Shown piece after piece: positions 45,944-59,173 of a stretch of DNA of 64,000 nucleotides. The first letter of the stretch is position 1. Each line of letters begins with the position of its first letter. The DNA lies in assembly GCF_031598375.1 (NCBI RefSeq), contig NZ_CP123872.1, forward strand, positions 992,001-1,056,000, read 5' to 3'. The position numbers were made by a program, and so were the translations under genes. A model generated the notes under the pieces. That model did not search any database. It was not told where the DNA came from and saw nothing but the letters and a program-made list of their open reading frames with translations. The DNA is from Temperatibacter marinus. Its GTDB lineage: Bacteria; Pseudomonadota; Alphaproteobacteria; Sphingomonadales; Kordiimonadaceae.

Positions 45944-46771
45944 TTATCCTTTATTTTCTTCATTCCAGAGGTGGAATTTATTAATAATCGCAGCAGCTGT
46001 TTCCTCAACAGAGCGCCGTGTGACATCTAGCACCTGCCAATTTCTCTCTCTACAATATTTGCGGCATTCTTTCACTTCATCTTGAATGCTGTCTATTGCA
46101 GCATAATCTGTAACCCCTTTTTCATTCAAGCTGTTGAGGCGGTTGGTTCTTATCTGACTGAGGCGGTCCGGACTTGTGGTCAATCCCATGACAAAAGTAT
46201 TATGCAAATGATCTAAATCTTCTGGCATCGGACAGCCTGGAACAAAAGGAACATTTGCCGTTTTAAACCCCTTGTTCGCAAGATATATACTTGTCGGGGT
46301 TTTGCTTGTTCTCGATACTCCCACAAGAATAATATCCGCCATATGTAAATCTTCTGTCAACTGTCCATCATCATGAGCCATCGTATAATCTAATGCTTCG
46401 ATGCGAGAGAAGTAATTTTCATCCATAGCATGTTGGCGGCCTGCAAGACCCGTCGGCTTCACCCCGAAATAGGATCCCAAAAGATTAATGAGAGGGTCCA
46501 TGATAGCAAGGACTGGAAAGCCAAGATCGCGACAGCCATCTTCTAGTGTTCTACGAATATCTTCATTTACAATTGTATAGAGAACAAGCCCTCGATTTTC
46601 TGATATATCTTGGATAATTCTTTCCATTTGTTTTGGGGACCGCATCAAAGGCCAGTTATGTTTGACCACGTCAACACCATCAAATTGCACAAGAGCTGCT
46701 TGCAACAGTCCATCAAGGGTTTCTCCTGTAGAGTCTGATACTAAATGCAAGTGAAGTTGTTGTGTTTCCAT
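45944..46771 (-). CDS. ppsR: Pyruvate, phosphate dikinase regulatory protein (DUF299, PpsR/PDRP)
   Basis: Bifunctional kinase/phosphorylase that switches PPDK or PEP synthase by ADP-dependent phosphorylation. Signatures are LHLVSDSTGETLDGLL at the start and the P-loop-like ILVGVSRTSKTPTSIYLANKG. The 275 residues match. It lies directly left of the origin-like gap; in Caulobacter and Rickettsia a gene of this family also flanks the origin opposite hemE. Confidence 0.94.
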   Translation of the reverse strand: METQQLHLHLVSDSTGETLDGLLQAALVQFDGVDVVKHNWPLMRSPKQMERIIQDISENRGLVLYTIVNEDIRRTLEDGCRDLGFPVLAIMDPLINLLGSYFGVKPTGLAGRQHAMDENYFSRIEALDYTMAHDDGQLTEDLHMADIILVGVSRTSKTPTSIYLANKGFKTANVPFVPGCPMPEDLDHLHNTFVMGLTTSPDRLSQIRTNRLNSLNEKGVTDYAAIDSIQDEVKECRKYCRERNWQVLDVTRRSVEETAAAIINKFHLWNEENKG

Positions 46772-46820
46772 AATAATTTTTCTTTCATTCCTCTTTTAGG
46801 TCTACCCCTCTTGATAACCC

Positions 46821-46829
46821 TGTGGATAA
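46821..46829 (-). promoter_or_regulatory. Perfect DnaA box
   Basis: TTATCCACA on the minus strand, within the origin-like gap. Confidence 0.85.
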
Positions 46830-47095
46830 CTTACTTATAGGTCTGTGGTCTACTTTCTTATTCCTTTTTATCCCCACACTCCAACTTTTTTCATCAGAGT
46901 TATACTTTTTATCCCTTGATAAAGATAATGGGGATAGTTTTTTCAAGGAACCACGAGATATACCCATTTTGGGCTTACTTTATACAAAGTATAGATCTAT
47001 CAATCTATCCTTTCTTGAGAGTCGCATCTTTAGATGACCTCCTAAGAAAATATGTAAAGTATATTTTTAAACAAAAGTTTAGCTGTGCAAAACCA

Positions 47096-47104
47096 TGTGG
47101 ATAA
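47096..47104 (-). promoter_or_regulatory. Perfect DnaA box, paired with an opposite near-perfect box
   Basis: TTATCCACA on the minus strand; 4 bases further lies TTATCCCCA on the plus strand (47109-47117), so the two boxes face opposite ways near the AT-rich stretch. Confidence 0.85.
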
Positions 47105-47149
47105 CTTTTTATCCCCATGATTCACAGGGTACAAATACAACTACTATTT

Positions 47150-47175
47150 CTCTATAAATATATATATTTATTTGT
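47150..47175. other. AT-rich stretch, candidate DNA-unwinding element
   Basis: Almost only A and T (TATAAATATATATATTTATTT), 45-70 bases from the paired DnaA boxes and just upstream of hemE. Confidence 0.55.
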
Positions 47176-47224
47176 TAGTAAGAAGCTCGTGTATAAAATT
47201 GAGTTCAAATAATAGGCAAAGAAG

Positions 47225-48259
47225 ATGACAAAAAGACTTTTAAACGTTCTTCAAGGAAAGAAAGAAGATCAAATCCCTTTTTGGTTTATGCGTCAAGCTG
47301 GGCGTTATTTACCAGAATATAGAGAAGTAAGAGCCACCTGTCCTTCTTTTATGGAATTTTGTTATACCCCTGCTAAGGCTGCGGAAGTGACCCTGCAACC
47401 TATCCGGCGTTATGGTATGGACGGGGCTATTCTCTTTGCCGATATTCTTGTCGTACCGGATGGACTTGGACAGAAAGTTTGGTTCGAAACAGGAAAAGGG
47501 CCTCAATTAGAGCCTGTGCATGATGCTCAAACATTAGCAGCCTTATCACTTGATGGCTTTCACCAAAGAGTGGGTAATGTTTATGAAACTTTAGCACGTT
47601 TGAAGCAAGATCTTCCCAAAGAGACCACATTAATTGGTTTTGCTGGTGCGCCTTGGACTGTTGCAACTTATATGCTTGAGGGGGCGGGCAGTAAAGATCA
47701 TGCAACTGCAAAGAAATTTGGTTATATGAACCCTGATCTTATGACAGGGTTACTTGACCTTCTCGTAGAAAGTACGGCTGAATATTTGATTAAGCAAATT
47801 GATGCCGGTGCAGATGCAGTGCAAATCTTTGATAGTTGGGCAGGATCTCTGTCTGAAGTAACATTTCGCGATTGGGTGATTGCACCCACAGTTAAAATAA
47901 TTGAAAAAGTCAGAGCCGCTCATCCTGAAACCCCTATTATTGGATTTCCTCGTCTTGCAGGGCCTATGAGTCAGGACTATTTGTCTGCAACGAAAGTGGA
48001 TTGTATTGGTCTAGATACAAGTATGTCTCTTCAGTGGGCTAAGGATAACTTACAATCCAGCGGTGTCTGCGTTCAGGGTAACCTAGATCCTCAACTTGTT
48101 GTTGCTGGGGGGGCAAGGATGCTCGAAGAGGCAGAGCGGGTCCTAGAGAGCTTTAAATACGGTCGTCACATCTTTAATCTTGGTCATGGGTTTACACCAG
48201 ATTGTCCTCCTGAGCATGTGGCTGCTCTTTCAGAATTTATTCAAAATTACAGAAGGTAA
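47225..48259 (+). CDS. hemE: Uroporphyrinogen decarboxylase
   Basis: Decarboxylates uroporphyrinogen III to coproporphyrinogen III in heme synthesis; cytosolic. The signatures PFWFMRQAGRYLPEYR and GFAGAPWTVATYMLEG are complete, with FDSWAGSLS and GNLDPQLVVAGG later. The 344 residues are standard. It is the first gene right of the origin and is followed by hemJ after 6 bases, so the pair is a heme operon. Confidence 0.97.
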   Translation: MTKRLLNVLQGKKEDQIPFWFMRQAGRYLPEYREVRATCPSFMEFCYTPAKAAEVTLQPIRRYGMDGAILFADILVVPDGLGQKVWFETGKGPQLEPVHDAQTLAALSLDGFHQRVGNVYETLARLKQDLPKETTLIGFAGAPWTVATYMLEGAGSKDHATAKKFGYMNPDLMTGLLDLLVESTAEYLIKQIDAGADAVQIFDSWAGSLSEVTFRDWVIAPTVKIIEKVRAAHPETPIIGFPRLAGPMSQDYLSATKVDCIGLDTSMSLQWAKDNLQSSGVCVQGNLDPQLVVAGGARMLEEAERVLESFKYGRHIFNLGHGFTPDCPPEHVAALSEFIQNYRR

Positions 48260-52578: not shown

Positions 52579-53055
52579 TTAGAAGAGTTCAGGTTCTAAA
52601 ATTTCTTCTAAAATGAGTAGGGCTTTCTTAGTCCAAATGCCTCCATCGCCAGAATATCCACCGAGCCATTTTTCGCTGCCTTTCTCACCTGTCGCCACAA
52701 CACGATGGCAGGGTAGAATGATGGGGATTGGATTTCTGCCACAGGCAGTTCCTACAGCCTGAGCGCTGGAAGAAAGGTTTTTTGCTAATGCGCCATAACT
52801 CATAGTTTCCCCATACTGAATAGATGCCATACGAGTCCAAACACGTTTTTGATGATCTGTTCCATAAGGATCCAGAGGTAAGTCAAACGATGTTAACTGG
52901 CCATCAAAATAGGCATCTAATTGGTTTTTTGCTTCTAGTAAAAGAGGACTCTTTTCTTGATCCTCAACCCAACCCCAATCAAGAGCCACTATTTTCTCTT
53001 GATGTTCATAGAGTGTGATATCAGCTATAGGTGTATGAAGAGAGAGTTGCGGCAC
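52579..53055 (-). CDS. ogt: Methylated-DNA-[protein]-cysteine S-methyltransferase
   Basis: Suicide repair protein taking alkyl groups from O6-alkylguanine. The acceptor is C116 in IILPCHRVV, preceded by the helix-turn-helix region YGETMSYGALAKNL and AVGTACGRNPIP. The 158 residues match Ogt. The start is GTG. It is divergent from the DUF6489 gene. The 247-base gap to its left holds a terminator for the M20 gene and otherwise no gene. Confidence 0.93.
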   Translation of the reverse strand: MPQLSLHTPIADITLYEHQEKIVALDWGWVEDQEKSPLLLEAKNQLDAYFDGQLTSFDLPLDPYGTDHQKRVWTRMASIQYGETMSYGALAKNLSSSAQAVGTACGRNPIPIILPCHRVVATGEKGSEKWLGGYSGDGGIWTKKALLILEEILEPELF

Positions 53056-53376: not shown

Positions 53377-54738
53377 ATGACGGCTCAAAAAACCATTTAT
53401 GCTTTGTCGTCTGGGGCAGGGACCGCAGGCGTTGCTGTTATTCGCCTCAGCGGTCCAGATAGTTTTGAAGCCCTAACAACGTTGACTGGACGACATGATT
53501 TTGAACCAAGGGTTGCAACATTATGTAAGTTGAAAGACCCGGACGATAGGTCTCATCTTGATCACGCTCTCGCATTACCTTTCAAGGAGCCGTATAGCTT
53601 TACAGGGGAAGATGTTGTCGAGCTTCATATTCATGGCGGCAGGGCAGTGACGGAAGGGGTGCTCTCAACCCTTCATAAAAACAAATCTTTGCGCATGGCA
53701 GAGCCCGGGGAATTTACAAGACGGGCCTTTGAAAACGGGAAAATGGACCTGACGGAAGCAGAAGGGTTGAACGATTTAATTCATGCTCAAACGGCAGCTC
53801 AAAGACAGTTGGCGCTGCGGCAAATGGACGGAGCTCTTCGTCATTTATATGAAGGTTGGCGCCGTGACTTAGTTTCTCTTCTTGCACATTTAGAAGCCGA
53901 CATTGATTTTCCAGATGAAGACCTTCCGGAGGGTGTTGCCGAGGCAGCCCGCCCGAAAATAAGGACTCTCTGCTCAGACCTTAAGGGCCATTTGGATGAT
54001 AATAACAAAGGACAAGCTCTTAGAAATGGATTTACCATTGTTATTTTAGGAGCCCCAAACGCAGGCAAGTCATCTCTTATGAATGCGTTGGCTCAATCAG
54101 ATGTTGCTATTGTTTCAGATGAAGCGGGCACAACAAGAGATGCAATAGAGGTCAACTTAGATCTTGGGGGGTATCCCGTACGATTCATTGATACAGCAGG
54201 GATTAGAGAGAATGCAGGAAAAGTTGAGAGTGAAGGCATTAAAAGAGCTCTTAACAAAGCAGAACAAGCCCACTTGAAGCTGATTACAATTAGAGCAGAT
54301 GAATGGCCAGATGTTTCACGTGAAACACTGGAGCTTATTGACGACCGAAGCTTCGTTGTTTTTTCTCAGAGCGATAAAGCTGATTTGGATCCGGCGATGT
54401 TTCACGTGAAACATCCATCCTTGAGACCTGTTGAAGTGACAACAACCTCTAGTGTGACACAGCAAGGAATTTCAGACCTACTGGAGAAGGTGGAGCGCTA
54501 TTCTGTAGCGCAAATGGAGATTAATGAAGCGCCTATATTAACCAGAATGCGCCACCGAACTGCTTTAGAAGAATGTATAAGCCACTTAGAGCGATTTGAT
54601 CAATCAGCCACCTTAGACGCTGTTCTTGCAGCTGAAGACGTGCGCATGGCAGCGCGCTGTCTTGGATCCATCACAGGTTTAATTGATGTTGAAGAATTGC
54701 TTGATGTAATTTTTTCAGACTTTTGTATTGGAAAATAA
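53377..54738 (+). CDS. mnmE: tRNA modification GTPase MnmE
   Basis: With MnmG, installs 5-carboxymethylaminomethyl or aminomethyl groups at U34 of certain tRNAs. The N-terminal folate-binding domain is followed by the G domain: G1 is GAPNAGKS (K231), G2 is AGTTRD, and G3 is DTAGI. The C-terminus ends FCIGK, the conserved C-(I/L/V)-G-K. The 453 residues match. Two parS sites are embedded in the G domain coding region, encoding DVSRETL and MFHVKHP. Confidence 0.97.
   Translation: MTAQKTIYALSSGAGTAGVAVIRLSGPDSFEALTTLTGRHDFEPRVATLCKLKDPDDRSHLDHALALPFKEPYSFTGEDVVELHIHGGRAVTEGVLSTLHKNKSLRMAEPGEFTRRAFENGKMDLTEAEGLNDLIHAQTAAQRQLALRQMDGALRHLYEGWRRDLVSLLAHLEADIDFPDEDLPEGVAEAARPKIRTLCSDLKGHLDDNNKGQALRNGFTIVILGAPNAGKSSLMNALAQSDVAIVSDEAGTTRDAIEVNLDLGGYPVRFIDTAGIRENAGKVESEGIKRALNKAEQAHLKLITIRADEWPDVSRETLELIDDRSFVVFSQSDKADLDPAMFHVKHPSLRPVEVTTTSSVTQQGISDLLEKVERYSVAQMEINEAPILTRMRHRTALEECISHLERFDQSATLDAVLAAEDVRMAARCLGSITGLIDVEELLDVIFSDFCIGK
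54312..54327. promoter_or_regulatory. parS site 1 (in mnmE)
   Basis: Perfect 16-bp palindrome TGTTTCACGTGAAACA, the ParB-binding parS consensus, inside mnmE. Confidence 0.93.
54398..54413. promoter_or_regulatory. parS site 2 (in mnmE)
   Basis: A second perfect TGTTTCACGTGAAACA, 86 bases from site 1, in another reading frame of mnmE (encodes MFHVKH rather than DVSRET). Confidence 0.93.
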
Positions 54739-56745: not shown

Positions 56746-57363
56746 ATGTCTATAGATATCATAAAAGCACATTTAGATGTTTCACGTGAAACATGTGACA
56801 GTCTTGAGAAATATGCAGCGTTACTTCAAAAGTGGCAGCCAGCAAAAAACCTCATTGCAAACTCAACGCTACCAGACCTTTGGGAAAGGCACTTTTTAGA
56901 CAGTGCACAACTCTACCCTCTTATTCGAAAAATACATGGAGAGAGAGAACTTACCTACCTAGATATTGGATCCGGCGCGGGGTTTCCTGGACTGGTCCTT
57001 TCTGCAATGGGGTTGGGGCAAGCCCACATGGTCGAATCGAATCATAAAAAGGCAATTTTTATGGGCCAAGTTGCCAGATCTAACAAATTACAGGCGAAAG
57101 TTCACAATGAAAGAATAGAAGATCTCGATGTTTTTCCTGTTGACCTCATAACAAGCAGGGCTTGTGCAACTATAGAGAAACTCTTAGATTGGACGAGGCC
57201 GTTCATAGGAGAGGCTACTGAGATGTGGCTTTTAAAGGGCGCAATCGCAGATGATGAATTGACCTTAGCAAAAAAGTCATGGACTATGGAAATTGAAAGA
57301 TTTGAAAGCCTAACAGATTCAAGTGGGGTGATCTTAAGGTTATACAATATTAAAAACATCTAA
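56746..57363 (+). CDS. rsmG: 16S rRNA (guanine(527)-N7)-methyltransferase RsmG (GidB)
   Basis: Methylates N7 of G527 in 16S rRNA with SAM. The SAM motif is YLDIGSGAGFPGLVLSAMG, preceded by WERHFLDSAQL; VESNHKKAIFMGQVAR and SRACATIEKLLDW follow. The 205 residues are typical. The third parS site lies near its 5' end, encoding DVSRET. Confidence 0.95.
   Translation: MSIDIIKAHLDVSRETCDSLEKYAALLQKWQPAKNLIANSTLPDLWERHFLDSAQLYPLIRKIHGERELTYLDIGSGAGFPGLVLSAMGLGQAHMVESNHKKAIFMGQVARSNKLQAKVHNERIEDLDVFPVDLITSRACATIEKLLDWTRPFIGEATEMWLLKGAIADDELTLAKKSWTMEIERFESLTDSSGVILRLYNIKNI
56778..56793. promoter_or_regulatory. parS site 3 (in rsmG)
   Basis: Perfect TGTTTCACGTGAAACA inside the 5' part of rsmG, about 620 bases from parA. 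Confidence 0.93.
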
Positions 57364-57416: not shown

Positions 57417-58208
57417 ATGTCTACAAATCATATAATTGCTGTTGCTAATCAAAAAGGCGGGGTGGGTAAAACCACCACTGCGATAAACCTTGCTACAGCG
57501 ATGGCAGCTGTTGGTAAATCTGTGCTTGTGATAGATCTAGATCCTCAAGGAAATGCCAGCACAGGGTTTGGAATTGACCGGGCTAGCCGAGAAATAACAT
57601 CCTATGACGTTGTTTTGGGTGTCGCAGCTATGGCTGATGCCATCGTAGAAACATCAGTTAAAGGGCTATTCCTTGTGCCCTCAACAGTTGATTTGTCAGC
57701 AGCAGACCTCGAATTGGCTGAAATGCCGCAGCGGAACTATAGACTAAAACAGGCTATTGAAAAAGTTGTCTCAGAGCAACATTTTGATTTTATCTTCATA
57801 GACTGTCCGCCGTCTTTGTCCCTGCTCACACTGAATGCTCTTGTTGCGGCATCAGGGGTGCTTGTTCCTTTACAAACTGAATTTTTTGCACTTGAGGGTC
57901 TAAGTCTTTTATTGAATACAATTCAGCAAGTTCAGGGCGCACTAAATCCAGATCTCGAGATCAATGGTGTTGTCTTAACAATGTATGATAGACGGAGCAA
58001 CTTATCCGCTCAAGTAGAGGAAGATGTAAGAGATTACCTTGGTGATAGAGTTTATACGACGGTTATTCCAAGAAATATTCGGGTAACAGAGGCACCCAGC
58101 CACGGTGTGCCGGTTCTCATGTATGATCATAGCTGCCCAGGAAGCCGCGCCTATATTCAATTGGCAACAGAAATGTTAAAACGAACAGGCACTTCTATTG
58201 CCGCATAG
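57417..58208 (+). CDS. parA: Chromosome partitioning ATPase ParA (Soj)
   Basis: Deviant-Walker ATPase that forms the nucleoid gradient pulling ParB-parS complexes. The motif is AVANQKGGVGKTTTAINLAT (signature Lys at residue 13, Walker Lys at 18), with VIDLDPQGNAS, FIDCPPSLSLLTLNAL and PRNIRVTEAPSHGVPVLMYD. The 263 residues are chromosomal-type Soj. It is 47 bases before parB. Confidence 0.97.
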   Translation: MSTNHIIAVANQKGGVGKTTTAINLATAMAAVGKSVLVIDLDPQGNASTGFGIDRASREITSYDVVLGVAAMADAIVETSVKGLFLVPSTVDLSAADLELAEMPQRNYRLKQAIEKVVSEQHFDFIFIDCPPSLSLLTLNALVAASGVLVPLQTEFFALEGLSLLLNTIQQVQGALNPDLEINGVVLTMYDRRSNLSAQVEEDVRDYLGDRVYTTVIPRNIRVTEAPSHGVPVLMYDHSCPGSRAYIQLATEMLKRTGTSIAA

Positions 58209-58255: not shown

Positions 58256-59173
58256 ATGGCAGGTATCAAGAAAAAAGGATTAGGAAAAGGTCTGTCCGCA
58301 TTGATCGGTGATGCAGCGCCTGTTGTTCAAACAGCGTCTGATGCGGTTCCCGCTACAGAACTTGCAGCAGGAGAAAAGGCAGAGGGTAGACGGCGTCTTC
58401 CTATAGAATATCTTGTCCGCAATCAAAAACAACCACGCTTAATGTTTGATGAAGCAGCCATTGAAGAATTATCCGCTTCAATCAAAACCAAAGGCCTCTT
58501 GCAACCTATTTTAGTGAGGGAGTTGGCTAAGGATAAATTTGAGATCGTTGCCGGGGAGCGCCGATGGCGTGCCGCTCAAAAGGCAGGTGTCTATGAAGTT
58601 CCTGTTGTTATTCGAGACTTGGATGATGGGGAAGTTCTTGAAATCGGGTTGATTGAAAATATTCAGCGTCGTGATTTAACACCAGTAGAAGAAGCAATTG
58701 GCTACCGCCGTCTGATGAATGAATTTGGCCATACACAAGAAGTCGTTTCAAAGCTTGTCTCTAAAAGCCGTTCTCATGTGGCAAACCTTCTTCGTTTATT
58801 AACATTACCGGATAGCGTTCAAGAGATGGTTAATGAAGGTCAACTTTCTATGGGTCATGCACGCGCTCTTATCGGAGCAGCTGATCCGGCTGTTCTTGCG
58901 CGCCGTGTTTTGGCCGAAGGGCTTTCCGTTAGACAGACAGAAGAACTTGCGAAAGAAGTTAAAGGCAAAGGCAAACGGGAACCTCGGCCTGGCGGCACGT
59001 CTGGAAAGTCAAAAGACGCTGACACCTTAGCTCTTGAAAAAGATTTATCAGAGACTGTTGGAATGAAAGTTACGATTGATCATAAAGGCGAAGCGGGCAA
59101 ACTTTCTATCGACTACTTAACCTTAGAGCAGTTAGATGATATTTGTGCGCGCTTAGGCGTTAGTTTGATGTAA
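58256..59173 (+). CDS. parB: Chromosome partitioning protein ParB (Spo0J)
   Basis: CTP-dependent clamp that loads at parS and spreads. It begins KKKGLGKGLSALIGD, the usual ParA-stimulating N-terminus, then carries IEELSASIKTKGLLQPILVRE, the CTP-binding GERRWRAA and ENIQRRDLTPVEEA motifs, the helix-turn-helix QEVVSKLVSKSRSHVANLLRLL (split by a turn), and a C-terminal dimer domain. The 305 residues are normal. Its likely targets are the three parS sites 2-4 kb upstream. Confidence 0.97.
   Translation: MAGIKKKGLGKGLSALIGDAAPVVQTASDAVPATELAAGEKAEGRRRLPIEYLVRNQKQPRLMFDEAAIEELSASIKTKGLLQPILVRELAKDKFEIVAGERRWRAAQKAGVYEVPVVIRDLDDGEVLEIGLIENIQRRDLTPVEEAIGYRRLMNEFGHTQEVVSKLVSKSRSHVANLLRLLTLPDSVQEMVNEGQLSMGHARALIGAADPAVLARRVLAEGLSVRQTEELAKEVKGKGKREPRPGGTSGKSKDADTLALEKDLSETVGMKVTIDHKGEAGKLSIDYLTLEQLDDICARLGVSLM

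Follow-up and report, generated by a model that had tools for sequence, protein, structure and literature searches.

The window analysed here is a 64,000-nucleotide stretch of the Temperatibacter marinus chromosome (contig bases 992,001-1,056,000), whose assembly consists of one contig of 3,184,799 bases (3.18 Mb). Within it, a 453-base intergenic gap (46772-47224) separates ppsR (45944-46771, minus strand), encoding the pyruvate phosphate dikinase/PEP synthase regulator, from hemE (47225-48259, plus strand). Among named relatives, the nearest HemE proteins come from Kordiimonadaceae / Kordiimonas, in keeping with membership of that family. The gap has a G+C content of 31.6%, compared with about 44% in its surroundings, and the flanking genes read outward from it as described in the initial annotation, with minor exceptions such as a minus-strand open reading frame at 52579-53055. 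No Rfam family scored above threshold in or around the gap.

Two perfect DnaA boxes of sequence TTATCCACA lie on the minus strand of the gap, one distal (46821-46829) and one within what we refer to as the core (47096-47104), together with two single-mismatch TTATCCCCA boxes on the plus strand (46868-46876 and 47109-47117), the former of which includes the Caulobacter W-box hexamer TCCCCA (PMC4285127). The initial annotation had listed exactly these four boxes, for which Markov shuffles of the gap give an expectation of 0.04, and weaker boxes that it also mentioned are readily found, with 10 boxes having at most two mismatches against 1.9 expected from the shuffles. The weak boxes include CTATCCCCA (two mismatches; 46929-46937, minus strand) and TTTTGCACA (47084-47092, minus strand), the latter forming the outer half of the left, or mirror, arm of the core. 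Directly abutting the core forward box TTATCCCCA is a proximal box, TGATTCACA (47118-47126, plus strand), which differs from the E. coli consensus at two positions and from the Caulobacter G-box TGATCCACA at one. The spacer GGGTACAAATA (47127-47137, plus strand), with a conserved GG, leads from this box into a run of trinucleotide repeats, CAA CTA CTA TTT CTC (47138-47152, plus strand), corresponding to DnaA-trios that read 3'-GTT GAT GAT AAA GAG-5' on the bound strand, and these are followed by an AT-rich tract (47153-47190) that is a candidate unwinding element, the G+C content being 15% across 47132-47171. TTATCCMCA sites number 77 genome-wide, and the gap is the only place with more than two of them within 300 bases.

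GC skew, sampled on 43 stretches of the chromosome and not base by base, is negative from approximately 2.64 Mb through the contig end to 1.0388 Mb and then positive to approximately 2.58 Mb, the one exception being a stretch with near-zero skew at 1.36 Mb. The switch of skew that the initial annotation had anticipated at this site is therefore seen at the resolution of the sampled stretches, with a sign change in the gap and the opposite change at the antipode. Within the window, the cumulative G-C minimum falls at 47152, inside the gap, while the cumulative maximum on the chromosome lies at 2,630,007 relative to a calculated antipode of 2,631,552, and the strand bias of GGGNAGGG flips together with the skew. 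A stringent dif pattern gave no match. When the two dif arms were scanned under relaxed conditions around the skew maximum, the best dif-like site was AAATCGCATAATTTATATTATGGGAAAT (2,639,046-2,639,073), which carries four arm mismatches, compared with six for the best site elsewhere. This candidate is 9 kb from the skew maximum, and the implied length difference between the two replichores is about 15 kb. In two other closed Kordiimonadaceae chromosomes the skew also flips at the core (between 170 and 172 kb in G009, and between 548 and 550.5 kb in G020) and back near the antipode. Only three parS sites with at most two mismatches occur in the genome, all of them perfect and positioned 7-10 kb from the gap (54312-54327, 54398-54413 and 56778-56793), close to a putative parA (57417-58208, plus strand; named from its sequence) and parB (58256-59173, plus strand). 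Two of the three parS sites (54312-54413) are contained in mnmE.

The ppsR/hemE gap is kept in 27 genomes of the same family, where it measures 415-622 bases and harbors both the distal reversed box and the core. The distal box is perfect in 25 of the 27 family members and has no more than one mismatch in any, and its distance to the core box is 253-303 bp in most of them. The order of the core elements is likewise retained, running from the reversed box through N4, TTATCCCCA, an abutting TGATTCACA-type box, the GG spacer and the trinucleotide repeats to the AT-rich tract, and the family block can be written as TGTGnATAA - N3 - TGTGGATAA - N4 - TT[A/T]TCC[A/C]CA - NN - ATTCACAGG - spacer - C-N-A repeats - AT-rich tract, with TTCACAGG of the proximal box nearly invariant. 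A profile built from sequence only, covering a 100-base block around the core reversed box, returned one strong match in the T. marinus genome (E 1e-19) with the next distinct place at 0.1, a second match (6e-4) being the core's own mirror at the same place. Among 290 Alphaproteobacteria genomes, 109 were matched and 181 gave no match at E ≤ 0.001; of the four genomes of the same order in this set, two were among the 181. The matches are thus biased towards origins that resemble those of this family.

Of the 76 profile matches for which hemE coordinates were listed, 73 precede hemE on its own strand at a distance of 2-247 bp (median 59); across the class the matches are thus almost always placed directly upstream of hemE, the gene that the initial annotation had named as the origin neighbor in Caulobacter and Rickettsia. 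In 29 of the 30 best loci, hemE or rho adjoins the core and the other side is mostly occupied by ppsR, maf, aroE, coaE or dnaQ, while in two of these loci, which have no adjacent hemE, the core lies between rho and coaE/dnaQ or maf/aroE. A short DNA profile can mark hemE-linked origins in more than one third of the sampled Alphaproteobacteria, including draft assemblies in which skew is unreadable.

Since the skew switch with its antipodal terminus, the parS sites, the synteny and the conservation of the core all agree, we identify 46772-47224 as the single chromosomal origin, oriC, with a probability of about 0.96, in accordance with the initial reading of the gap. The site shares with the known hemE-linked origins (Caulobacter Cori, Rickettsia and Wolbachia; PMC1914354) the adjacent hemE, a box cluster in an AT-rich gap, a conserved flank, parAB with parS a few kilobases away, and both W-box (TCCCCA) and G-box-like (TGATTCACA) sites. 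It differs from them in having neither a full CtrA site nor an IHF-consensus site and in its left flank of ppsR-maf-aroE-coaE-dnaQ, and it is further distinguished from Caulobacter, with its TGATCCACA boxes, by the strong TTATCCACA boxes. This Kordiimonadales origin is the expected kind of alphaproteobacterial site, ordinary yet very well supported.

The core is arranged in the same way as the basal unwinding system (BUS) published for B. subtilis (PMC6669920, PMC8287927, PMC10721633), with which it has in common a co-oriented box pair whose more conserved member is upstream, a GG spacer, in-register trinucleotides, an AT-rich tract and a distal box. The published rule specifies one or two co-oriented boxes with at most two and at most four mismatches, and here TTATCCCCA (one mismatch) abuts TGATTCACA (two mismatches); the first NTN trio is found 14 bp from TGATTCACA, where the rule allows 0-16 bp; and the pattern (.A.){3,}, which calls for at least three trios with a central adenine on the bound strand, is present in the window as CTA CTA TTT CTC. 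Unlike the B. subtilis system, the core here has an extra pair of reversed boxes oriented to the left. The core profile also gives a weaker, minus-strand match at 47051-47122 (23 bits), but a mirror BUS there was rejected, as the match mostly reflects the inverted boxes and no clear repeats were seen on that side. The inverted tandem boxes at 47051-47122 also point left and might serve the second helicase.

From this likeness we consider it likely that the origin opens by a BUS-like mechanism. DnaA would occupy the core boxes (47084-47126) as well as the distal box on the opposite side of the gap (46821), and a DnaA-ATP filament starting from the co-oriented TTATCCCCA-TGATTCACA pair would grow rightwards across the GG spacer, engage a single strand of the repeats (47138-47152) and pull that strand out, such that the AT-rich tract would open up to hemE and helicases could load there for two forks. 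The B. subtilis distal box can act across hundreds of bases through a DNA loop (PMC6669920), which is the basis for assigning a candidate role to the conserved box at 46821, where a similar loop probably delivers DnaA to the core. The same gap could instead be opened by ssDUE recruitment of the E. coli type, in which the DNA is bent so that DnaA sitting on the boxes can capture a T-rich strand by its TTGT/TTATT motifs, and the layout offers this reading some encouragement, with boxes in both orientations beside an AT-rich element, as in E. coli oriC, and the other strand of the CAA repeats reading TTGTTG and so containing the TTGT that E. coli DnaA needs (PMC5742627). We nevertheless regard it as unlikely, because the gap is without an IHF-consensus site and because the order of boxes, spacer and repeats is fixed, the repeats running in a 3-base register beside co-oriented abutting boxes in the manner of a BUS and not of E. 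coli oriC.

The likeness to BUS becomes less complete when the repeats themselves are compared. Bacillus trios have a conserved middle adenine on the bound strand that is contacted by Asn187 of DnaA, and a T in its place makes for a weaker origin (PMC10721633). The repeat conserved in the origins examined here is C-N-A on the top strand, equivalent to 3'-GNT-5' on the bound strand, and in-register runs of at least three C-N-A units occur in 17/27 family and 18/29 class genomes, where shuffles give about 0.1. Anchoring of the class rows was partly automatic and seems to be wrong in at least L136, L139, L144, L146 and L147, an error that would have lowered the repeat count rather than raised it. 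The centre of the top-strand trio is T in 42, A in 32 and C in 15 cases in the family, and A in 42, T in 37 and C in 12 in the class set, with the trios of some genomes being almost pure 3'-GTT-5'. By comparison, the central-adenine pattern (.A.){3,} is found in only 6/27 family and 7/29 class genomes, fewer than in shuffles, leading us to drop it as a detector in relatives and indicating that the central adenine is not the feature conserved among them. For T. marinus alone nothing unusual needs to be invoked, as its own CAA CTA CTA TTT CTC satisfies the published rule.

A corresponding difference is seen in the initiator. Alignment with the B. subtilis protein in structure 8btg, numbered through the Asn187/Ile190/Ile193/Arg202 spacing (PMC10721633), places Leu at the Asn187 position in the T. 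marinus protein, Tyr in 27 of 30 class DnaAs and Asn in one. These origins therefore depart from the B. subtilis BUS both in a trio centre that is T or A in relatives and in the aligned residue, and they look like natural exceptions to the central-adenine rule with a matching change in DnaA. We hypothesize that residue and repeat are linked, and suggest tentatively, at somewhat less than even odds, that Alphaproteobacteria use a variant trio, 3'-GNT-5' with T or A at its centre, that is read by a Tyr- or Leu-bearing DnaA in place of Asn. If so, trio specificity would rest on the flanking bases, unlike in Bacillus, where the central adenine has that role, a distinction that bears on how DnaA recognises single-stranded origin DNA, as the central-adenine rule rests on Bacillus. 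The new point is a modest one, comprising non-adenine trios and a DnaA that lacks the adenine-contacting Asn, within a conserved unwinding core that is otherwise of a known kind.

The initial annotation had also taken GANTC sites and one near-CtrA site as a hint of CcrM/CtrA-type control. The sites themselves are present but are no more frequent than chance predicts, and so do not support the hint: GANTC occurs at two places in the gap (P 0.38), one overlapping the proximal box, and the near-CtrA sequence TTAA-N7-TTTA at 47067 contributes to two strand matches against 2.9 expected. A Caulobacter-like scheme, with CtrA repressing initiation and CcrM methylation timing it, draws some plausibility from the gene content, as the genome encodes a ctrA product that shares 77% identity with the CtrA query and exceeds the NCBIfam CtrA cut-off, as well as a CcrM-like protein that aligns to the full NCBIfam CcrM model with a score below the cut-off. 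We judge such control improbable, given that the full site TTAA-N7-TTAA is absent from the gap and that none of the family gaps tested contains a full CtrA site (N6 or N7), whereas Caulobacter Cori carries five (PMC6399470). CtrA sites are likewise scarce or absent in the origins of some intracellular Alphaproteobacteria (PMC1914354), and control by other means may operate here. The origin gaps of G008 (L021) and G011 (L024) carry 13 GANTC sites, far above other family members.

DnaA boxes at promoters are known in other bacteria and the boxes here sit in a shared promoter region, yet the idea that the cluster is merely a DnaA-titration site or a DnaA-regulated promoter of ppsR or hemE, with the origin elsewhere, is very improbable in light of the skew switch inside the gap, the antipodal terminus, the parS linkage, the AT-rich tract with its repeats, and the persistence of the core beside rho where hemE is not adjacent. 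Taking the gap as oriC fixes where replication starts on a closed Kordiimonadales chromosome, and no paper in the literature collection searched names both Kordiimonas and a replication origin. The deposited record begins elsewhere, at the ctrA ATG (base 1; ctrA 1-687), 1.04 Mb from the origin, and the dnaA gene is 140 kb from the gap. The single exception to the flanking pattern among the 30 best loci is L127 (G153), where a strong hit to the core profile is flanked by none of the origin genes queried; it may represent an origin that has moved within a reduced genome.
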